From the NCBI RefSeq assembly GCF_014779595.1, contig NZ_JACXZT010000019.1, positions 1,209,808-1,273,807 of the forward strand: a stretch of DNA of 64,000 nucleotides, in the 5' to 3' direction. The DNA comes from Halomonas sp. ML-15 (GTDB lineage: Bacteria > Pseudomonadota > Gammaproteobacteria > Pseudomonadales > Halomonadaceae). Both the position numbers and the translations under genes were made by a program. The notes under the pieces were generated by a model that saw only the letters and a program-made list of their open reading frames with translations, was not told where the DNA came from and made no database searches. Position 1 is the stretch's first letter. Each line of letters opens with the position of its first letter. This document shows positions 9,730-43,368 of the stretch, in pieces.

Positions 9730-11037
9730 ATGAGCCAAGATGCCACACAGCAGGATCACACCAACCTGTTCGACGATGCCCGCTCGCGCCTGGAGGAGGT
9801 CTTCGAGGCGCTGGAAATCAGCCCCGATGCCTGCCAGCGGCTGATGCAGCCAGCACTGTCATTGCAGGTCAGCGTGCCGGTACGCATGGACGACGGTAGT
9901 CTCAAGGTGTTTCCCGGTTGGCGGGTGCAGTACGACACCAGCCTGGGCCCGGCCAAGGGCGGTATCCGCTTCCACCCCGCCGTCGACCAGCTAGAGGTGA
10001 CCACCCTGAGCTTCTGGATGGCGGTCAAGTGCGCGGTGGTCAACCTGCCCTTCGGCGGCGGCAAGGGCGGCGTGCAGGTCGACCCCAAACAGCTCTCGCG
10101 GCTGGAGCTCGAGCGCCTGGCACGCGGCTATATTCGCGGCATCGCGGATGTGATGGGCCCCAACCGCGATATTCCAGCCCCCGACGTCAACACCAACGCC
10201 ACCGTCATGGGCTGGATGTCGGACGAGTACGCGCATTTGGTGCGCGGCCAGACTCCGGCGGCCATCACCGGCAAGCCGCTGACGCTGGGCGGCTCCTACG
10301 GCCGGGTGGCGGCCACTGGGCGGGGAGCCCTCAAGGTGCTGGATATCTGGGCCGAGCGTGAGGGGCGCAAGCCGCAGGACACCACGGTAGCAATACAGGG
10401 CTTCGGCAATGCCGCCTACCATTTTGCCAGCCTGGCCCATGCCCAGGGCTACAAGATCGTCGCAGTGTCGGACTCCGGCGGCGCCATCTACTCCGAGGAG
10501 GGGCTGGAGCCCGATCCTATCAAGGAGGAGAAGACCCGCCACCAGCAGCTCAAGGGCATGGTCTACTGCGACGACTCGGTATGCCACGCCAAGGGGGTCG
10601 AAGCGATCGACCAGGACGAACTGCTGGCCCTCGACGTCGATGTGCTGGCCCTGGCGGCGCTGGAAAATCAGATCCACGAGGATAACGTCGGCGACGTCCG
10701 CGCCGGCCTGATACTCGAGATCGCCAATGGCCCGGTGACCTCAGCCGCCGACGACGCCCTCGAGGAGCGCGGCATTCCGGTACTGCCGGACGTGCTCGCC
10801 AATACCGGCGGCGTGATCGTCAGCTACTACGAGTGGGTGCAGAACCGCAGCGGCGATCGCTGGACGGAGGAAACCATCAATCAGCGCCTGGATGCAGTGC
10901 TGGAGCGTGAAGCAGCCACGGTGCTTGACCGCGCCGAGGCGGAGCAGATCTCCTACCGCAAGGCGGCCTACCGGCAAGGCATCGAGCGCATTGCCGAGGC
11001 GATCCGCGAGCGCGGCAACAACCAGGACGGTGAGTGA
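9730..11037 (+). CDS. Glutamate dehydrogenase (Glu/Leu/Phe/Val dehydrogenase family)
   Basis: This 435-residue protein matches the usual length of hexameric bacterial glutamate dehydrogenases. It has the substrate site GGIRFHP, the active-site lysine region LPFGGGKGGV, the PAPDVNTNATVMGW segment, and the Rossmann glycine motif IQGFGNAAYHFA followed by a DSGG segment. It interconverts glutamate with 2-oxoglutarate and ammonia. The acidic residue at the second beta strand end (VSDSGGAIY) resembles NAD-type enzymes, but coenzyme choice cannot be settled here. The gene is convergent with the acetamidase/formamidase gene, only 7 nt separating the stops, and next to an amide-degrading cluster that would release ammonia. 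Confidence 0.93.
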   Translation: MSQDATQQDHTNLFDDARSRLEEVFEALEISPDACQRLMQPALSLQVSVPVRMDDGSLKVFPGWRVQYDTSLGPAKGGIRFHPAVDQLEVTTLSFWMAVKCAVVNLPFGGGKGGVQVDPKQLSRLELERLARGYIRGIADVMGPNRDIPAPDVNTNATVMGWMSDEYAHLVRGQTPAAITGKPLTLGGSYGRVAATGRGALKVLDIWAEREGRKPQDTTVAIQGFGNAAYHFASLAHAQGYKIVAVSDSGGAIYSEEGLEPDPIKEEKTRHQQLKGMVYCDDSVCHAKGVEAIDQDELLALDVDVLALAALENQIHEDNVGDVRAGLILEIANGPVTSAADDALEERGIPVLPDVLANTGGVIVSYYEWVQNRSGDRWTEETINQRLDAVLEREAATVLDRAEAEQISYRKAAYRQGIERIAEAIRERGNNQDGE

Positions 11038-35205: not shown

Positions 35206-35231
35206 CTCATTCGGCCGAGGTGGCAGCGCAC

Positions 35232-35263
35232 AAAGAAAAGCCGCCACGCGCAAACGTGGCGGC
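35232..35263 (-). terminator. Minus-strand hairpin terminator left of tRNA-Gly
   Basis: GCCGCCACG (35240-35248) and CGTGGCGGC (35255-35263) form a perfect 9-bp stem. On the minus strand it is followed by CTTTTCTTTG. It could stop transcripts coming from the LacI-type gene, which would pass antisense over tRNA-Gly. Confidence 0.55.
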
Positions 35264-35392
35264 AAGATCGAAAGTAAGCATAAGCACAAGGTTCGCGACT
35301 GCTATCGACGAAATGTGCTCATGCTTCCTACGACCACCGCCTCTTGAAATGATTCACTCCAGGATAAAAATTCCTTTTGCTCGTCCCCTGGC

Positions 35393-35421
35393 TTGCATGG
35401 CTAAGCGCTTGGATTTACTAT
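35393..35421 (+). promoter_or_regulatory. Likely promoter of tRNA-Gly
   Basis: TTGCAT (35393-35398) and TACTAT (35416-35421) are spaced by 17 bp and lie 12 bp before the tRNA gene, fitting a sigma-70 promoter. Confidence 0.55.
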
Positions 35422-35433
35422 CGAAAGCGCCTT

Positions 35434-35507
35434 GCGGGTGTAGCTCAATGGTAGAGCAGAAGCTTCCCAAGCTTAAGACGAGGGTTCGATTCCCTTCACC
35501 CGCTCCA
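35434..35507 (+). tRNA. tRNA-Gly (anticodon CCC)
   Basis: The 74-nt sequence folds as a cloverleaf: acceptor GCGGGTG with CACCCGC, D-arm GCTC/GAGC, anticodon loop TTCCCAA (anticodon CCC, reading GGG), T-arm with GGGTTCGATTCCC and an encoded CCA end. It closely resembles E. coli glyU. The top of the anticodon stem shows a G27-A43 mismatch by my folding. Confidence 0.96.
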
Positions 35508-35578
35508 TGGCTACCCTACCCCCCCTGTTCTTCCTCACAAAGCCCATCACTACTGGGTTCGCTGGCTGCACCAGTGAC

Positions 35579-36625
35579 TCACGTACTTTCGCGCACGGTG
35601 AGCTCATAGCCGATATCCACTTTTGCTGAGGGTGGCGTACGCCCCTCGAGCCTCGCCAGCATCAGCTTGGCGGCCTCGACCCCCATCTCGAATCGCGGCA
35701 CGGTCACAGTCGTTAGGCTGGGCGTGAGATGCTCACCCAGCGATAGCCCCAGGTAACCACCAATGGCGATCTCCTCAGGCACTCGAATGCCGCGCCGGTT
35801 GGCTTCCATCACCGCACCGGCAGCCAAGTTGTCATTGGCGAAATGTAGCGCCTCCAGATCAGGCCGAGATTCAAGCGCCTCCAGGAACAGTCGGCGCCCT
35901 GCCTGATAGGACGAGGGCTCCTCGCGGCGAAACAGCACCTCACACTCCAATCCCGCCTGTTCCAGCACCTGCCGGTGGCCCTCGAAACGCTGCATGGCCC
36001 TGTAGTCACGGCTCATCCCCGTCCCCAGGTAAGCAATCCGCCGGAAACCCTGCGAAACGAGGTGTTGCGCCATGCAGGCCCCTACCGCGTGATTGTCCAC
36101 ACCGACATTCATATCAATGAACTCGTCGCCCAGCTCCATGATCTCGATGATGGGATGGCCCCAGGCTTTGAGCCGTCGCACAGCGCCCTCATGATGGCGA
36201 AGGCCGGTCAAGATAACGCCGGACGGCGAGTAGCCAAGCACCGAGTCGATCAGACTCGCCTCGCGGTCCAGGTCGAAATCAGTGGAGCCCAGCAGTACCT
36301 GATAACCGGCCTCTTCGAGGGTCTGCTGGATACCATGGATCACTTCGATAAAGGTCAGAATCGACAGTGACGGCACCACCACCGGAATCATCCGCATTTT
36401 TGCCGATGCCAAGCCGCCTGCCACCAGGTTGGGCACATAGCCCAGAGTGCTGACGGCCTGTTCGATGCGCTCACGCAGCTTGGACGACACCCGCTCGGGC
36501 GTGTTGAGAGCACGGGATACGGTGATCGGCGCCACTCCAGCCAGCAAGGCAACGTCTTGTATCGTCACTCGATCCGAACCGCGGTGACGCCGACGCTCTC
36601 GCGCCCCGGAATTCTGTTTCACCAT
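35579..36625 (-). CDS. LacI-family transcriptional regulator of the RuBisCO-like cluster
   Basis: The ATG at 36625 follows GGGAGAG and gives 348 residues; an upstream ATG at 36652 is less likely. The helix-turn-helix is VTIQDVALLAGVAPITVSRA (about residues 20-40), followed by the LacI hinge (TLGYVPNLVAGGLAS) and a sugar-binding-protein-like effector domain. It resembles the gluconate-repressor group (GntR of E. coli), fitting a sugar-acid inducer. A perfect 14-bp palindrome lies between it and the divergent TRAP transporter genes, which it most likely represses. Confidence 0.93.
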   Translation of the reverse strand: MVKQNSGARERRRHRGSDRVTIQDVALLAGVAPITVSRALNTPERVSSKLRERIEQAVSTLGYVPNLVAGGLASAKMRMIPVVVPSLSILTFIEVIHGIQQTLEEAGYQVLLGSTDFDLDREASLIDSVLGYSPSGVILTGLRHHEGAVRRLKAWGHPIIEIMELGDEFIDMNVGVDNHAVGACMAQHLVSQGFRRIAYLGTGMSRDYRAMQRFEGHRQVLEQAGLECEVLFRREEPSSYQAGRRLFLEALESRPDLEALHFANDNLAAGAVMEANRRGIRVPEEIAIGGYLGLSLGEHLTPSLTTVTVPRFEMGVEAAKLMLARLEGRTPPSAKVDIGYELTVREST

Positions 36626-36682
36626 GGCTCTCCCTGGCGTTGTTTTTGCCATGATCTCATCCTAACGGATAACAAGCGAAAT

Positions 36683-36696
36683 GGTAGCGCTACCAA
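36683..36696. promoter_or_regulatory. LacI-type operator in front of the TRAP/RuBisCO-like operon
   Basis: TGGTAGCGCTACCA is a perfect palindrome with the central CG pair usual in LacI-family operators (ATGGTAGCGCTACCAA extends it by one match). It lies 58 bp before the regulator start and 140 bp before the DctP-like start. Confidence 0.75.
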
Positions 36697-36836
36697 AATA
36701 CCCGTGCTAGCTTTTTGGGAGTGGCATCAGAACGCATGGATCCGGCCTCAAGGTCGTGCTGCACGCCTTTGCAGGTTCACGCTCGGGATGAACGCCAAAC
36801 GCCACTCATACTGAATTCCCAAAAGGGGTACGCCAT

Positions 36837-37811
36837 ATGAATACAAGAACAGCCAGCGGAATCATCCTCGCCAGCCTGGCCAGCCTAGGCCTCGCCGCCC
36901 AAGCCAGCGCCGCTGAACTCGCTATCGCGATCCACGTCGAGCCATCCGACACCATGTTCAAGGTCGGGGAGCGTCTCAAGGAGACCATCGAGGCGGAGAC
37001 AGATGGGAGGTACACCGTCACCCTGCTGGGCACAGAGGTCGGTGGCGAGCGGGACCACCTGGAAGGCGCCAGTTTCGGTGAGTATGCCATCGCCCTGGGC
37101 GGTTCCATGCCGATGACGCTCTACGCCGAAGAGTTTGCGTCAGCCGACCTTCCCTTCGTCTATCGCTCCAGCGAAGAGGCCCGGGAAGTCTATGAGGGTG
37201 AGACTGGGGACTTGCTCAACGAGCGCTTGATCGCCAGCGGCAATATGCGCCTGGTGGGGCTCTCCCAGCGTAACCCGCGCAATCTGACGTCGAAGTTCCC
37301 CGTCAATACACCCGACGATGTCGATGGCGTCCGCCTGCGGGTGCCTGAGATAGCGCCCTGGATCAAGGTGTGGGAAGAGGTCGGTGCGCTGCCAAGCCCC
37401 ATCGCATGGCCCGAAGTCTATACCTCACTGCAAACCGGTGTGATCGAGATGCAGGAAAATCCTGTCGATCTGATTCACTCAGGCAGACTCTACGAGGTAC
37501 AGGACCACCTCAACCGTACAGAGCATGTCTTTTCGTTTTTCCACTGGTTAATGAACGAAGACGTCTATCAGAGTCTGGCCGATGAAGATCGCGACATCAT
37601 CATGGCGGCGATTGATGACGCCACCCAATGGGGCGACGAGACCATCATCAGCGGTCAGGAAGCCCTCCTCGAAGAGCTGGAATCACTTGGCATGACCATC
37701 GTCGATAGCGATGTGGACGCTTTCCGCGCTGCCGCCGAGCCCGCGGTCAGGGAAATCATTGAAGATTACCACCCCAGTGTCCGTGAATACGTGAGCTCAC
37801 TGCTCGAGTAA
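36837..37811 (+). CDS. TRAP transporter solute-binding protein (DctP family)
   Basis: This 324-residue periplasmic protein has a signal peptide (about residues 1-26, cleavage near QASAAELAI). The DctP fold is shown by MFKVGERLKETIEAETDGRY, the substrate-carboxylate-binding arginine in VDGVRLRVPE, and the WPEVYTSLQTGVIEMQENP segment. TRAP binding proteins capture organic acids, often sugar acids. It opens a plus-strand operon of binding protein, small and large membrane subunits, an SDR, a RuBisCO-like protein and a DUF1537 kinase, so the ligand is probably the acid degraded by those enzymes. Confidence 0.95.
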   Translation: MNTRTASGIILASLASLGLAAQASAAELAIAIHVEPSDTMFKVGERLKETIEAETDGRYTVTLLGTEVGGERDHLEGASFGEYAIALGGSMPMTLYAEEFASADLPFVYRSSEEAREVYEGETGDLLNERLIASGNMRLVGLSQRNPRNLTSKFPVNTPDDVDGVRLRVPEIAPWIKVWEEVGALPSPIAWPEVYTSLQTGVIEMQENPVDLIHSGRLYEVQDHLNRTEHVFSFFHWLMNEDVYQSLADEDRDIIMAAIDDATQWGDETIISGQEALLEELESLGMTIVDSDVDAFRAAAEPAVREIIEDYHPSVREYVSSLLE

Positions 37812-37884
37812 ATCGCCCAGGGCGACTCTGCCAGACAGGGGTCGCCCTTCTCTTGCCAACGACATCAGTCGACCGGAGGCGCCC

Positions 37885-38397
37885 GTGACAACCGCGGACC
37901 GCGTTAACCGTGCCATCGCTCTGTTCTGGGGACTCCTCACTACCATCGTCACCACGGCCTTCGCGCTAATGTTGACGATCATGGCCATCCAGGTCATATC
38001 ACGCTATGCATTGGGCATCGCCGTGTCCTGGACCGATGAAGCCGCTCGCTACCTCTTCCTGGCACAGATTTTTCTGGGCTCGGTACTGGCACTGCGCTAT
38101 CAGGAGCACATCCGCATTACCGTGGTGACAGATCTGATGGGGCCACGTCTGCGCCATATTGTGGCGAGCCTGGCCGACGTCATCTGCATCCTGGTGCTAC
38201 TGATGCTGGCCATTGGAGGGTGGAACATGATGGAGAGAACCGCCGGCGTCCTGGCCAGCACCTTCCGCTTGAGCTTCTCGTATATCTACCTGATTCAGCT
38301 TATATCCGCGGTGATGATGATCGGACTCCTGATAGGTGATCTCTACCGACGCCTGTTCATTAAGCTGCCCGCCATTCAACACGACCGGAGTGAGTGA
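37885..38397 (+). CDS. TRAP transporter small membrane subunit (DctQ family)
   Basis: The GTG at 37885 follows CCGGAGGC and gives 170 residues with four transmembrane helices. The motif QVISRYALGIAVSWTDEAAR is the DctQ signature. It couples the binding protein to the large channel subunit. The stop lies just before the DctM start. Confidence 0.95.
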   Translation: MTTADRVNRAIALFWGLLTTIVTTAFALMLTIMAIQVISRYALGIAVSWTDEAARYLFLAQIFLGSVLALRYQEHIRITVVTDLMGPRLRHIVASLADVICILVLLMLAIGGWNMMERTAGVLASTFRLSFSYIYLIQLISAVMMIGLLIGDLYRRLFIKLPAIQHDRSE

Positions 38398-38399
38398 CC

Positions 38400-39692
38400 A
38401 TGGAAGTCTTCGTCATCCTGTTCGTCGGCCTGATCGTCCTGTTAATGCTGGGGGTGCCGGTCGCCTTTGCCATGATCGCCTCCTCCGCCATGGTGCTGGG
38501 ATACACGAGAGGTTTTGACGCTATCCCCATGGAGATGATTGCTCAGCGCACCCTCTATGGCGTCAACAGTTTCACGCTGCTGGCCATCCCGGCCTTTCTA
38601 CTGATCGGTCGGCTAATGAACAGCGCCGGCATTTCGGACCGCGTCTTCGACATTGCACGGACGATGGTCGGCCATCTGAAGGGCGGGCTGGGCCACGTCA
38701 ATGTAGTAGCCAGTATGCTGTTCGCCGGCATGTCGGGCTCCGCGGTGGCGGACGCTGGGGGACTCGGCGCGTTGGAAATCAAGGCCATGGAGGATGATGG
38801 CTATCCTACCGGCTTTAGCGCGGCGGTCACGGCCAGTTCGGCCACTATCGGCCCAATTATTCCGCCCAGCATTCCTGCCGTCATCTATGGTGCCCTGGCC
38901 AATGCCTCCATTGCCGGCATCTTTCTGGCATCGATTATTCCCGGCCTGTTCATGGGACTGGGCCTGATGGCCATGGTCGCCATTATCTCCCACCGCCGCG
39001 GCTTCCCGACCCGCGCCCGCGCGCGCTTCACAGACTTCACGGCGGCGCTGGTGCGCGGTGTACTGCCGATGCTGACGCCACTGATCATCATTGTGGGCAT
39101 CCTGACCGGAGTTTTCACCCCCACCGAGGCGTCAGTGGTCGCCCTGGTCTACTGCTTGTTCATTGCCTTCGTCGTCTATCGCTCTATCAGCTTCCGAGAG
39201 TTCATTAACATTCTGCGCGCGACCGCCATCGACTCCGCCGCCCTGATGTTCATTATTGCCGGCAGCGCCCTTTACAGCTGGGTACTGGGGCGTTATCAGG
39301 TCACCTCTCTGGTGGCCGACTTTCTGCTCGCCACCGTTACTGACCCGCTCGGCCTGCTGCTGCTGCTGGCCCTGTTCATTCTGCTGATTGGCCTGTTCAT
39401 CGATTCGGTGCCGGCCCTGTTCCTGTTGACCCCTCTGCTGGTGCCGGTTGTGGTGCAGTACGGTATCGACCCCATACATTTCGGGGTGGTGATGATTTTC
39501 ACCCTGATGATCGGCCTGATCACGCCCCCCGTGGGTACGGTGCTATTCACTATCCAGAAGATCACCAACTTGCCGTTCGGCGTGCTGGTGAAAGAGACGC
39601 TGCCGTTCTATATCCCGCTGTTCGTCGTTCTACTCATCATTATCTGCTTCCCCTCTATGGTCATGTTCCTTCCAAATCTGGTCTTGAATTAA
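38400..39692 (+). CDS. TRAP transporter large membrane subunit (DctM family)
   Basis: The ATG at 38400 is preferred over the GTG at 38394 because of the spacing to CGGAG; it gives 430 residues with about twelve transmembrane helices. Diagnostic segments are NSFTLLAIPAFLLIGRLMN, SAVADAGGLGALEIKAM, IIPPSIPAVIYG and the late PPVGTVLF. The subunit imports the substrate with a sodium gradient, which suits a halophile. Confidence 0.96.
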   Translation: MEVFVILFVGLIVLLMLGVPVAFAMIASSAMVLGYTRGFDAIPMEMIAQRTLYGVNSFTLLAIPAFLLIGRLMNSAGISDRVFDIARTMVGHLKGGLGHVNVVASMLFAGMSGSAVADAGGLGALEIKAMEDDGYPTGFSAAVTASSATIGPIIPPSIPAVIYGALANASIAGIFLASIIPGLFMGLGLMAMVAIISHRRGFPTRARARFTDFTAALVRGVLPMLTPLIIIVGILTGVFTPTEASVVALVYCLFIAFVVYRSISFREFINILRATAIDSAALMFIIAGSALYSWVLGRYQVTSLVADFLLATVTDPLGLLLLLALFILLIGLFIDSVPALFLLTPLLVPVVVQYGIDPIHFGVVMIFTLMIGLITPPVGTVLFTIQKITNLPFGVLVKETLPFYIPLFVVLLIIICFPSMVMFLPNLVLN

Positions 39693-39703
39693 GGAGACCC
39701 ACT

Positions 39704-40660
39704 ATGTCAGTGCTTATCACAGGTGGCCTCGGTCACGTCGGTTCCTGGGTCGCCTACCTATTGGCCAAACAGGGCAAGCAGGTGATTATCTGCGATACCG
39801 CCGCCAATCGCTTCGATAGCATGGGCCTGGACTACCTGGAGGAGGTGCGCGACCTGCTCACCCTCGAGTCAGTCGACGTCCTCGACTACCACAGCGTCTT
39901 CGAGATTTTCCTGCGCCACCGCGATGACCTAGAGGGGGTCATTCATGGGGTCTCGGTGATCGCCGGGCCTTACTTCCAGGAGCATCCCTTCAAGCACGTG
40001 TCGATCAATGCCATGGGCACGCTTAACGTATACGAGACGTGCCGTATTCTGGGTATCACCAAGGTCGTCAACATGAGCTCCGGGGCCGTCTATGGCGATG
40101 CCCCCGGACCTCAGCACGAAGACACGCCCTACAAGGCCACCGATCTCTATGGTGCCTCGAAGATTTCGGGGGAGCTCTATGGCTTGCAGTACAACGACAC
40201 CTTCGGCATGGACATCCGCAATGCCAGACTCTTCTTCGTCTACGGCCCCGGTAAGCGACCGTCACATATGCACAAGGTGTATCAAGGATTATTCGGGCCC
40301 CTGGAAGGACTCGATGATATTCAGGCGCCCAATGGTTCGGAGCAGGCGCTGGACTGGACGCATGTCCTGGACACTGCCACCGGCATCGTAAAACTGTTCG
40401 AAAAGTCGCAGGTGACGCACCGCAACTTCAATATTTCCAGCGGTGTGCCCATCGACCATCTTAGGATCGTCGATGAGGTGGCCGATATCACCGGCAAAGC
40501 CGCCAAGGTCCAGTTAGGGCCAGGCCCGTTCGTGGTCCGAGGCTCGCCCCTGGATATCTCGCGGGCGCGTGAAGAGCTCGGCTTCGAACCTCGGTTCAGT
40601 GATATCCGTGAGGGGCTTCGCGACTATTGGCAATGGTTGCAGAAGGCTAATCTCAAGTAA
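39704..40660 (+). CDS. Extended SDR (NAD-dependent epimerase/dehydrogenase family)
   Basis: The 318-residue protein has the NAD-binding TGGLGHVGSWVAYLLAKQG glycine motif, an aspartate at the end of the second strand (IICDTAANRF, favouring NAD), a Ser in VNMSSGAVYG and the catalytic YGASK tyrosine-lysine pair near residue 150. It is an extended short-chain dehydrogenase. In this operon it could oxidise or epimerise the imported sugar acid before phosphorylation, providing a 3-oxo intermediate. The gene is 11 nt after dctM. Exact chemistry cannot be read from sequence. Confidence 0.9.
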   Translation: MSVLITGGLGHVGSWVAYLLAKQGKQVIICDTAANRFDSMGLDYLEEVRDLLTLESVDVLDYHSVFEIFLRHRDDLEGVIHGVSVIAGPYFQEHPFKHVSINAMGTLNVYETCRILGITKVVNMSSGAVYGDAPGPQHEDTPYKATDLYGASKISGELYGLQYNDTFGMDIRNARLFFVYGPGKRPSHMHKVYQGLFGPLEGLDDIQAPNGSEQALDWTHVLDTATGIVKLFEKSQVTHRNFNISSGVPIDHLRIVDEVADITGKAAKVQLGPGPFVVRGSPLDISRAREELGFEPRFSDIREGLRDYWQWLQKANLK

Positions 40661-40762
40661 TGGATGCCACGCCCAGCATCTCGATGAGCGGCGCAGCCAG
40701 TGTGTCGTTTCAGCTGATGAGATGACAAAGACCGTCGCTTAATCACTTGAGAGAGGTCGACC

Positions 40763-42031
40763 ATGAGCGATCGCATCCTGGCCACCTACCTGATCGAAAC
40801 GCCCTACCCGTTAGCGCATGCTGCCGAGGTGATGGCCGGTGAACAGTCATGCGGTACCTTTACTCGCCTGGCCAGCGAGACCGACGCGCTGCGCGAAGAG
40901 CATGCGGCCCGCGTCGAACATATTGAGCGACTGGGAACGCACTACACCCCCTCGCTGCCGATACCGGCGCTGCCCGCAGGAAGTGTGCATCCTGTCTACC
41001 GACGCGCACGGGTCACTCTCTCATGGCCACTCGCCAACCTCGGCGCCTCGTTGCCTACCCTGTTCGCGACGCTGGCCGGCAATCTTTTCGAACTCAAGGA
41101 GTTCTCGGCGCTCAAGCTGCTCGATCTGACACTGCCTGAGCCCTTTATCGAGGCCTACCCCGGCCCGCAGTTCGGTATCACCGGCACCCGCGAGCTGACC
41201 GGCATCCCGGAACGGCCGCTGATCGGCACGATTATCAAGCCCAGCGTGGGGCTGTCCCCGGAGGCCACCGCCGAGGTGGTCAGCCAACTGCTAGCGGGGG
41301 GCATCGACTTCATCAAGGACGACGAGCTGCAGGCCAATGGCCCCCACAACCCGTTCAAGGCACGGGTAGATGCCGTGATGCCGCTTATCCGGGAGCACGC
41401 CGAACGCACCGGGCGCAAGGTCATGTACGCCTTCAATATCACCGGTGAGACCGATGAAATGCGCGAGCATCACGACTATGTGGTCGCCGCGGGTGGCAGC
41501 TGTGTGATGGTCGCCCTTAATGCCGTAGGCCTGAGCGGCGTGAGCCAGCTGAGGCGCCACTGCCAAGTGGCTCTGCATGGCCATCGAGCGGGCTGGGGAA
41601 TGCTCAGCCGTTCACCACACCTGGGCATGAGTTTCGTGGCTTACCAGAAGCTGTGGCGTCTGGCCGGGGTTGACCATATTCACGTCAATGGCCTGCGCAA
41701 CAAGTTCAGCGAGGAGGATGCCAGCGTCATCGCCAGCGCTCGTGCCTGCCTAACGCCCATGTTCAACCCGCCGGCGCCAGGCTGCGAAGTGATGCCCGTC
41801 TTCTCGTCCGGCCAGACCGCTGACCAGGCAGCGGATACCTACGCCGCCATCACCAGTACCGATCTGATCTTCTGCGCTGGCGGCGGCATCATGGCGCACC
41901 CCGATGGCATCGGCGCCGGTGTCAGGAGCCTTCGCCAGGCCTGGGAGGCCGCGGTAGCGGGCATCGACGTCGACACCTACGCTCGCGAGCACAACGAACT
42001 AACCCGCGCTCTGGGGGCCTTCCGTCGATGA
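40763..42031 (+). CDS. RuBisCO-like protein (form IV large-chain homologue)
   Basis: The 422-residue protein aligns with the RuBisCO large chain. Catalytic and metal residues are retained by hand alignment (spinach numbering in brackets): Glu27 [60], Asn107 [123], Lys159 [175], Lys185-Asp187-Glu188 of the carbamylation motif KDDE [201, 203, 204], His274 [294], Arg275 [295], His307 [327], Lys314 [334], Ser348 [379] and the GGG phosphate loop at 373-375 [403-405]. Substitutions include Ser161 for Lys177, Ile157 for Thr173 and Phe33 for Trp66. It should enolise a phosphorylated 3-oxo acid but not fix CO2. Similar proteins with DUF1537 kinases act in the oxoisoapionate branch of D-apiose breakdown (OiaX/OiaT). 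Confidence 0.93.
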   Translation: MSDRILATYLIETPYPLAHAAEVMAGEQSCGTFTRLASETDALREEHAARVEHIERLGTHYTPSLPIPALPAGSVHPVYRRARVTLSWPLANLGASLPTLFATLAGNLFELKEFSALKLLDLTLPEPFIEAYPGPQFGITGTRELTGIPERPLIGTIIKPSVGLSPEATAEVVSQLLAGGIDFIKDDELQANGPHNPFKARVDAVMPLIREHAERTGRKVMYAFNITGETDEMREHHDYVVAAGGSCVMVALNAVGLSGVSQLRRHCQVALHGHRAGWGMLSRSPHLGMSFVAYQKLWRLAGVDHIHVNGLRNKFSEEDASVIASARACLTPMFNPPAPGCEVMPVFSSGQTADQAADTYAAITSTDLIFCAGGGIMAHPDGIGAGVRSLRQAWEAAVAGIDVDTYAREHNELTRALGAFRR

Positions 42032-43368
42032 CGATGAATCCACTGATCAGCTTCTACGGCGATGACCTGACGGGATCCACCGATGCGATGGAGGCCCTCG
42101 CTAGTCAGGGCGTCGATAGCGTGCTGTTCACCATCATCCCCGACGAAACCCAGTTGATGCGGTTCCGCCACTGCCGGGCGATCGGCCTGGCCGGCACCAG
42201 CCGCAGCGAGTCGCCGGACTGGATGGACCAGCACCTGACGCCGGCACTTAGCTGGCTGCGCGAACGCGGCGCAGCGCTCTGCCACTACAAGACATGCTCC
42301 ACCTTCGACAGTGCCCCTGACGTCGGCAGCATCGGCCGCGCCCTGGAGATCGGCCATCGCATCTTCGGCCATGAGGGCGTGCCAGTGGTGGTTGGCGCCC
42401 CTCAACTTCGGCGTTATACGGCCTTTGGCCAGCTATTTGCCGCCGCCCAGGATGAGGTCTACCGCATCGACCGCCACCCGATCATGTCACGCCATCCGGT
42501 AACGCCGATGCACGAGGCTGATCTGCGTCGCCACCTGGCAATGCAGACCTCCCTAGATATTGGCCTCATCGACCTGGTGGCCCTCGCCGACACCCAGCTT
42601 GATAGCCGCGTCGACAGCGCTCGAGTCGCTTACGCCGCTCTGCTATACGACGTGCTCGATTCATCCAGTCAGGCAGCAGTGGGGCGTCAGCTGTGGCGCA
42701 CCCGGCCAACGAACGGCGGCTTCGTGGTCGGCTCCTCCGGGGTCGAATACGCGCTGCTCGCCGAGTGGCGCCGCCTGGGGCTGATCGAGGCGCCCCCCCC
42801 CTTTACCCATCCGGGCCCCGTGGAACGCATCGCCGTGGTCTCAGGGAGCTGCTCCGAGACCACCGCTCGCCAGATCCGTTACGCCGAGGCCCACGGCTTT
42901 GTCGCTCTGCGGGCAGACGCCATGCGTCTGGCCAATGACGCCCAGGCGACCGCCGAGCTGGATGCCGTTCGCTCGCAGGCGCTGGCGGCACTCACCGCAG
43001 GTCGTAGCGTGGTGATCTACACCGCCCTCGGCCCCGATGCCGGTCTGGTATCGTTACCGCATAGCGGCGCTGCACATGCCATCGGCCGCCGACTGGGGAG
43101 GCTACTTCGGGACCTGGCTCGTGCCGAGCAGCTCGCCCGCCTTGTGGTCGCCGGTGGCGATACATCCAGCCATGCGATTCAGGAACTGGGCATCCAGGCA
43201 CTCACTACACGCTTGCCACTCCCCCAGACGCCCGGGTCGCCACTGTGCACCGCGCACAGTAGCGATCCCGCCTTTGACGGCCTGCAGGTCGTTTTCAAGG
43301 GTGGGCAGCTCGGGGACGACGCCTTCTTTGTGCGGATTCGCGATGCTGATCATTCACCTTGTGAGTAG
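42028..43368 (+). CDS. DUF1537 four-carbon-acid-sugar kinase-like protein
   Basis: The 446-residue protein overlaps the RuBisCO-like gene by 4 nt (ATGA) and is surely its partner. The N-terminal domain has FYGDDLTGSTDAMEAL and HYKTCSTFDSAP; the C-terminal domain has VVSGSCSETTARQI, RLVVAGGDTSSHAI and QVVFKGGQLGDDAFF. These are the sugar-acid and nucleotide-binding motifs of the DUF1537 (Otn/Dtn/Oia) kinases. The GDDLTGSTD version is, as I recall, found in those linked to RuBisCO-like proteins, such as 3-oxoisoapionate kinase. It should phosphorylate the terminal hydroxyl of a 3-oxo or hydroxy sugar acid, making the substrate for the RuBisCO-like enzyme. Confidence 0.92.
   Translation: MTMNPLISFYGDDLTGSTDAMEALASQGVDSVLFTIIPDETQLMRFRHCRAIGLAGTSRSESPDWMDQHLTPALSWLRERGAALCHYKTCSTFDSAPDVGSIGRALEIGHRIFGHEGVPVVVGAPQLRRYTAFGQLFAAAQDEVYRIDRHPIMSRHPVTPMHEADLRRHLAMQTSLDIGLIDLVALADTQLDSRVDSARVAYAALLYDVLDSSSQAAVGRQLWRTRPTNGGFVVGSSGVEYALLAEWRRLGLIEAPPPFTHPGPVERIAVVSGSCSETTARQIRYAEAHGFVALRADAMRLANDAQATAELDAVRSQALAALTAGRSVVIYTALGPDAGLVSLPHSGAAHAIGRRLGRLLRDLARAEQLARLVVAGGDTSSHAIQELGIQALTTRLPLPQTPGSPLCTAHSSDPAFDGLQVVFKGGQLGDDAFFVRIRDADHSPCE

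Follow-up and report, generated by a model that had tools for sequence, protein, structure and literature searches.

A TRAP-SDR operon with a RuBisCO-like protein and a DUF1537 kinase in Halomonas sp. ML-15: candidate second entrance to 3-oxo-isoapionate catabolism

Background

D-Apiose, a plant sugar, is degraded oxidatively, in the branch that ends in a RuBisCO-like protein (RLP), by the series ApsD-ApnL-ApnO-OiaK followed by OiaX or OiaT (outline in part after PMC6302742), and growth on D-apiose is reported, in PMC11747546, for a strain with an annotated ApsD/ApnL/ApnO/OiaK/OiaX set. The present analysis concerns an operon in a 64,000-nucleotide stretch of DNA from Halomonas sp. ML-15 (the window), in which an RLP and a DUF1537 kinase follow a tripartite ATP-independent periplasmic (TRAP) importer and an extended short-chain dehydrogenase/reductase (SDR), with a LacI-type regulator diverging from them. 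On the reading favoured here, the SDR forms a second entrance to 3-oxo-isoapionate catabolism and probably acts on C3 of an isoapionate-type acid. The direct basis for this assignment is gene content, conservation of the module, the shared ancestry of RLP and kinase, catalytic residues, a palindrome, and the failure to find relatives of ApnO and ApsD.

Organization of the operon

The features of the locus are:

35579-36652, minus strand: LacI-type regulator of a GntR/IdnR-like subfamily (PF00356, 65.5 bits; PF13377, 109 bits), divergent from the operon
36682-36695, no strand: palindrome TGGTAGCGCTACCA, putative operator of LacI, between the LacI and DctP genes
36837-37811, plus strand: DctP, TRAP solute-binding protein (PF03480, 180 bits; nearest solved chain 4pc9/4pcd)
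37885-38397, plus strand: DctQ, TRAP small permease (PF04290, 95.5 bits)
38394-39692, plus strand: DctM, TRAP large permease (PF06808, 398 bits; TIGR00786, 404 bits, over cut-off)
39704-40660, plus strand: extended SDR, for which C3 oxidation of the imported acid is proposed (Epimerase PF01370, 130 bits)
40763-42031, plus strand: RLP, proposed to cleave the 3-oxo 4-phosphate (RuBisCO_large PF00016, 244 bits; RuBisCO_large_N PF02788)
42028-43368, plus strand: DUF1537 (four-carbon acid sugar) kinase (SBD_N PF07005, 166 bits; NBD_C PF17042, 112 bits)

All seven genes exceed Pfam gathering scores, both domains of the kinase among them, and the three TRAP subunits DctP, DctQ and DctM lie within one operon. 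A prior reading made from the sequence alone had placed the genes at these coordinates and had described the 4-nt overlap of RLP and kinase, which is present; DctQ and DctM overlap by 4 nt as well, and DctM-SDR and SDR-RLP are spaced by 11 and 102 nt. The SDR carries the motifs GGLGHVG and YGASK (a glycine motif and a YxxxK motif recur in 24 of 24 SDRs checked). The RLP is the one RuBisCO-family match found in the genome. Because the identical gene order recurs in L032, L033 (Halomonas alkalisoli; apparently the same contig as L093) and L092 (Vreelandella zhanjiangensis), the gene set is more than a chance assembly: the operon is real and conserved, its architecture is well supported, and the description of it as a self-contained catabolic unit stands.

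Proposed pathway

In the pathway that we propose, LacI would control the operon and DctPQM would import its substrate, a C5 sugar acid with a branched chain; an isoapionate (2-C-hydroxymethyl-tetronate) is the likeliest candidate. With NAD+ as the probable acceptor, the SDR would oxidise the C3 hydroxyl of this acid. That would give 3-oxo-isoapionate, which ApnO makes as an intermediate from D-apionate, without the rearrangement that ApnO executes. The kinase would phosphorylate C4, and the RLP would then break the resulting beta-keto acid: OiaT-like carboxyl transfer and hydrolysis to 3-phosphoglycerate and glycolate is somewhat likelier, OiaX-like decarboxylation to L-erythrulose 1-phosphate and CO2 less so. 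Taken as a whole (LacI-controlled branched-C5-acid operon, SDR entrance, kinase, RLP cleavage) the proposal is tentative, its prospects falling just short of even; the substrate, each reaction and the products are assigned from sequence comparison. The sequence-only reading had also envisaged that an acid is imported, oxidised, phosphorylated and then passed to an RLP step, and as a predicted succession this holds.

Distribution of the SDR module

Related RLPs were sought in 201 genomes of the same family (Halomonadaceae), 45 of which matched. With G085, G160 and one G029 match left out (30-34% identity; the last is, on reading, an ordinary RuBisCO), 43 genomes and 49 loci including the window are counted, and as much as 20 kb of surrounding sequence was read for the other 48 loci. 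Type T1 (the window, L032 and L033) has the arrangement LacI / DctPQM-SDR-RLP-kinase. Type T2 (7 loci) has a kinase 35-38% identical to that of the window, and LacI / RLP (57-61%)-DctPQM-SDR. Type T3 (23 loci) combines a NanR/GntR-type regulator, an ApnO-like gene, an RLP (70-88%), a kinase (57-79%; not found as an intact open reading frame in one of the 23, L039) and a different TRAP importer. Type T4 (15 loci) has another LacI / TRAP-VOC-RLP (47-50%)-kinase, with no oxidoreductase in between. This last arrangement is seen in L065-L079 of the Halomonadaceae and in L083, an Azospirillum brasilense plasmid; such loci may import an acid that is already oxidised, and their VOC protein may serve as an isomerase or epimerase. 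At a single odd locus (L064:4209-11762), an RLP of 53% identity is accompanied by a PhyH-type dioxygenase-like protein, together with a TRAP importer and a DUF1537 kinase, possibly another entrance.

The SDR (E<=1e-60) is encoded in 18 of the 201 genomes. All 18 also encode a related RLP, compared with 43 of 201 overall, and for RLPs of the nearer group the figures are 18 of 18 versus 31 of 201 (Fisher p 1e-17, uncorrected for kinship). The RLP adjoins the SDR module (T1, T2) in 10 of the 18 and lies only elsewhere in 8. An ApnO-like gene is likewise present in 10 of the 18; the other 8, which have no ApnO, have their RLP beside the SDR.

A scan of named genome contigs with an SDR alignment (L058 left out), which rests on two peptide patterns and may miss relatives, yielded 24 loci. 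Once L115 (29% identity over part of the query) is dropped, 23 are real: two T1, eight T2, seven of a type T5 that consists of LacI-DctPQM-SDR alone, two cut at contig ends and four alphaproteobacterial. (The RLP-locus and SDR-locus lists overlap: L033 with L093, and several of L057-L063 are apparently the same contigs as some of L093-L104.) In the alphaproteobacterial L112 and L114, RLP and kinase adjoin the SDR module in other gene orders; L109 has OtnK and OtnC there, like the plasmid locus L084, and L113 has neither. Eleven genomes or records were searched for an RLP elsewhere, and 10 encode one: those of L097, L109 and L113 and all seven of type T5. In six of the seven T5 genomes, the six checked for this, the RLP coincides in contig position with a T3 locus. 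None was found in the eleventh record, which is a single plasmid; another Paroceanicella profunda plasmid holds an RLP (50.5% identity). LacI-TRAP-SDR is, then, a conserved module.

Two further arrangements were seen on plasmids. In L084 (Paroceanicella) the position after the SDR, taken at other loci by RLP and DUF1537 kinase, is occupied by a small nucleoside/nucleotide-kinase-like gene (10106-10780). The Natronosalvus plasmid locus L087:8971-11695 holds an RLP-kinase pair from a haloarchaeon that belongs to the same broad group; SDR, VOC and cupin genes surround it.

Ancestry of the RLP-kinase pair and its link to ApnO

In a tree of 62 RLPs, T1 is nested in T3 as sister to L034/L035 (support 99/99), T2 is separate, and L112 and L114 group with the RLPs of apiose-gene plasmid loci (99/97). 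T1 falls inside T3 again in a second tree of 27 rows to which named OiaX and RuBisCO sequences were added (97/95), and also in a kinase tree of 51 rows (100/100; 12 of the 15 T4 kinases left out), in which L112 and L114 join Shinella and Rhodobacteraceae at only 93/68. RLP-kinase pairs thus came together with the SDR module on two or more occasions, perhaps three.

The RLP and kinase of the window share 88% and 79% identity with ApnO-linked copies, and the aligned catalytic motifs are unchanged. An ApnO-like gene (>=76% identity) occurs in 23 genomes, exactly the 23 with a T3-type RLP; we take such PF16896-type proteins to be ApnO. Compared with its counterparts in five plasmid loci, the T3 gene shares 66-74% identity with four of them and 54-56% with the fifth. 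In the plasmid loci L081, L086, L089, L090 and L169 there is also a Gfo/Idh/MocA dehydrogenase, presumably ApsD, and a large uncharacterised protein that is presumably the lactonase, judging by gene order. Most simply, SDR and ApnO would both deliver their product to one kind of kinase and RLP. In a Croceibacterium plasmid locus (L082:7989-10528), RLP and kinase lie among genes for a fucosidase, beta-galactosidases and a beta-L-arabinofuranosidase, a setting expected for use of apiose from pectin rhamnogalacturonan II.

The genome of the window has no match to ApnO at E<=1e-30, although the same query matches 38 of the 201 family genomes (23 at >=76%), and no relative of ApsD (best match 23% identity). 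A query for the lactonase ApnL likewise gave no match in the whole genome, but that query had no positive control. The earlier claim that the apiose enzymes are absent is thus borne out for ApsD and ApnO and is carried less far for the lactonase. As to the accompanying suggestion, that the SDR replaces them, the SDR as a substitute for ApnO on the same substrate was rejected: both occur in 10 of the 18 SDR genomes, where their importers and regulators differ, and because these ten keep both, the SDR is unlikely to duplicate ApnO.

Active site of the RLP

The best NCBIfam model for the RLP is OiaX (NF042437), at 464 bits and below the cut-off of 700. This shortfall was rejected as evidence, as the RLPs of the apiose-gene plasmid loci L081, L086, L090 and L091 also fall short (411-472 bits); those proteins thus carry no more specific name than 'ribulose-bisphosphate carboxylase large subunit family protein'. 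Identification as form III RuBisCO or MtnW fails (268, 196 and 157 bits, versus 497 for TIGR03326, 409 for PRK09549 and 514 for TIGR03332), and no OiaT model is listed among the NCBIfam hits.

The window RLP, 46% identical to a named OiaX, keeps 15 of 16 RuBisCO catalytic positions (the exception is K177, which is S161 here), whereas two proteins named OiaX (L169, Rhizobium leguminosarum, and L170, Sinorhizobium meliloti) keep 11 of 16, which argues that the window RLP is not of the NCBI-named OiaX type. Every one of 62 RLPs that do not bear the OiaX name keeps positions 60, 65, 123, 175, 201, 203, 204, 294, 295, 327, 334 and 379. At 60, 123, 327 and 379 the named OiaX proteins have D, G, Q and G, a combination that may define OiaX, and the window RLP has E27, N107, H307 and S348. 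Comparison with the characterised groups, which had been put forward as the way to place this protein, thus locates it inside the ApnO-linked RLPs by phylogeny, but makes it, by residues, not of the OiaX type and, by cut-offs, not MtnW.

Cleavage chemistry

An OiaT-type reaction yields 3-phosphoglycerate and glycolate; the product of OiaX needs isomerases of the TIM and RpiB families. Two known reaction types and one unknown are candidates for the RLP. No RpiB match is found in the genome of the window (68 of the 201 family genomes match) and one TIM-family gene is, so that the OiaT-like split would fit somewhat better than decarboxylation, in a comparison that covered named OiaX and RuBisCO sequences. 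With 46% identity to a named OiaX, and other residues than that protein has at four catalytic positions, the RLP may cleave hydrolytically. The RLP step of the sequence-only reading is accordingly kept, its cleavage being perhaps OiaT-like hydrolysis rather than decarboxylation.

Evidence weighed against the proposal, and alternatives

Several observations count against the proposal as a whole or in part. The seven T5 modules have no RLP or kinase adjoining them. In the second RLP tree the alphaproteobacterial RLPs of L112 and L114 are unplaced. A good predicted model of DctP was obtained, and fold comparison singles out no ligand. A mild enrichment of RpiB among ApnO genomes (13 of 23, p 0.02) and among RLP genomes (16 of 31, p 0.04) suits the decarboxylase branch better than it does OiaT. 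OtnC is encoded in all 18 SDR genomes, but also in 131 of the 201 family genomes. Lastly, the SDR module has OtnK and OtnC as neighbours in L084 and L109, and the T2 loci L057, L063, L094 and L108 have OtnC or the pair nearby.

The best-surviving alternative keeps the same route and makes the RLP a plain OiaX-like decarboxylase, its L-erythrulose 1-phosphate passing to an aldolase or to isomerases of other families. OiaX is, after all, the top NCBIfam model, the RLPs of this group in L081, L086 and L090 stand where the operon of L169 has its named OiaX, and the mild RpiB enrichment in RLP genomes points the same way. Retention of E60, N123, H327 and S379 in 62 of 62 proteins, all four replaced in both named OiaX proteins, nevertheless makes this version unlikely, as does the isomerase complement of this genome.

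The main rival substrate is an unbranched tetronate (D-erythronate or threonate), which the SDR would convert to 3-oxo-tetronate and the kinase to its 4-phosphate, with the RLP in place of OtnC generating dihydroxyacetone phosphate, a product that would require no further enzymes. The OtnK/OtnC neighbours of the module speak for it (the DctP proteins of L084 and L109 are 62-67% identical to that of the window), as do OtnC or OtnK/OtnC near the four T2 loci and the OtnC of every SDR genome. However, the genome of the window has a separate tetronate operon (L153:829-10275; C17, ~1.43 Mb) whose LtnD, OtnK, OtnC, OtnI and DenD all exceed NCBIfam cut-offs (445, 607, 347, 406 and 425 bits; cut-offs 350, 350, 250, 325 and 325), and which also has a TRAP binding protein (37% identical to the DctP of the window) and a LacI (52% identical to that of the window). 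OtnC is widespread regardless, and the kinase and RLP of the window are nearest to ApnO-linked ones, the kinase being 33% identical to OtnK. We therefore consider a tetronate substrate improbable.

Another C2-branched acid (for example 2-C-methyl-tetronate) or a longer one, handled by an RLP and kinase of shifted specificity, would suit the varied ligands of the nearest binding proteins and the T2 pairing of the same module with a kinase of only 35-38% identity, but the close kinship of RLP and kinase to ApnO-linked copies, motifs unchanged, makes such a shift less likely and this reading quite improbable.

An isoapionate is the best candidate. The best NCBIfam model of the kinase is OiaK (NF042436; 473 bits, below the cut-off of 700), and the protein shares 56% identity with the kinase next to a named OiaX. 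Its identification as OtnK (NF043035) was rejected at 168 bits versus 350, and that of the SDR as DenD, D-erythronate dehydrogenase (NF043036), at 34.6 versus 325. DctP is 33% identical to 4pcd; its nearest solved relatives (4pc9/4pcd, 4xeq, 4nq8, also 4pdh) are binders of hexonates, pantoate and erythronate. The sugar-acid importer of the sequence-only reading is thus retained as an importer of acids, with DctP only loosely like sugar-acid binders. Its suggestion of isoapionate is favoured most strongly by the position of the RLP-kinase pair inside ApnO-linked pairs and by the ten genomes that hold both loci, though the unbranched tetronate is a live rival; support for the substrate may be called moderate.

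Regulation and neighbouring genes

TGGTAGCGCTACCA occurs exactly in 16 of 18 LacI-divergent regions, the other two having one-mismatch pairs, and once in the 4.8 Mb genome (about 0.02 copies expected). Among 12 genomes searched, five of seven T5 genomes have two sites each, all by the SDR module; the exact search found none in two T5 genomes and four SDR-less genomes, and a reversed control pattern gave one match in each of two genomes. No copy is found in T3 and T4 loci. LacI, whose top NCBIfam model is GntR (347 bits, below the cut-off of 400), presumably binds this palindrome.

A KatG-like peroxidase gene that looks unrelated to the operon lies ~390 nt past the kinase on the same strand. 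A tRNA-Gly (CCC) gene (35434-35507) lies just downstream of the LacI gene, within a spurious open reading frame (35220-35609).

Significance and comparison with known systems

If the proposal is true, the RLP branch of branched-sugar catabolism gains, through this locus, a second entrance and a sugar-acid substrate, one not found described as such in the literature searched. The locus also points to an RLP group with a RuBisCO-like active site that the curated OiaX model scores low, and comparison with OiaX would reveal the residues that separate decarboxylation from hydrolytic cleavage, which bears on the evolution of RuBisCO chemistry. The second half-reaction of RuBisCO is hydration and C-C cleavage of a 2-carboxy-3-keto compound, and nearly the whole active site is kept in this group. 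A wider generalisation is possible but doubtful: that a widespread non-OiaX RLP group uses this half-reaction catabolically, and that the TRAP-SDR module repeatedly captures RLP-kinase or OtnK/OtnC for isoapionate-type acids. The products could then be 3-phosphoglycerate and glycolate or, by direct hydrolysis, glycerate and 2-phosphoglycolate. The loci are small and amenable to growth, deletion and in vitro assay.

No SDR-TRAP-RLP-kinase unit, and no such SDR partner, was found described in the literature searched, outside which lay Carter et al. 2018, reportedly the founding paper on D-apiose pathways, which may show such neighbourhoods; the possibility of an undescribed variant, raised by the sequence-only reading, is to that extent sustained. 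With the RLP branch of D-apiose degradation the locus shares the pairing of DUF1537 kinase and RLP, both of which branch with ApnO-linked pairs, and, as probable common intermediate, 3-oxo-isoapionate; it differs in having the SDR for ApsD and ApnO, TRAP for an ABC importer, and LacI for a NanR-type regulator. The T3 ApnO-TRAP loci are alike in RLP and kinase, at the identities given above, but have a NanR-type regulator, an ApnO-like enzyme and a binding protein only ~30% identical, where the window has LacI, SDR and DctPQM. Tetronate pathways (LtnD/DenD-OtnI-OtnK-OtnC) resemble it in TRAP import, oxidation, a DUF1537 kinase acting on a 3-oxo acid and a decarboxylating or cleaving last step, and some SDR modules adjoin OtnK/OtnC; in the window, however, the SDR is not DenD, the cluster is without OtnI and OtnC, and an RLP stands in for the class II aldolase-type decarboxylase. 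The nearest PDB chain to the RLP, 3nwr, is a solved RLP that matches over nearly its full length (446 bits), but its motifs resemble those of the T4 TRAP-VOC-RLP type (Azospirillum L083) rather than those of the window.

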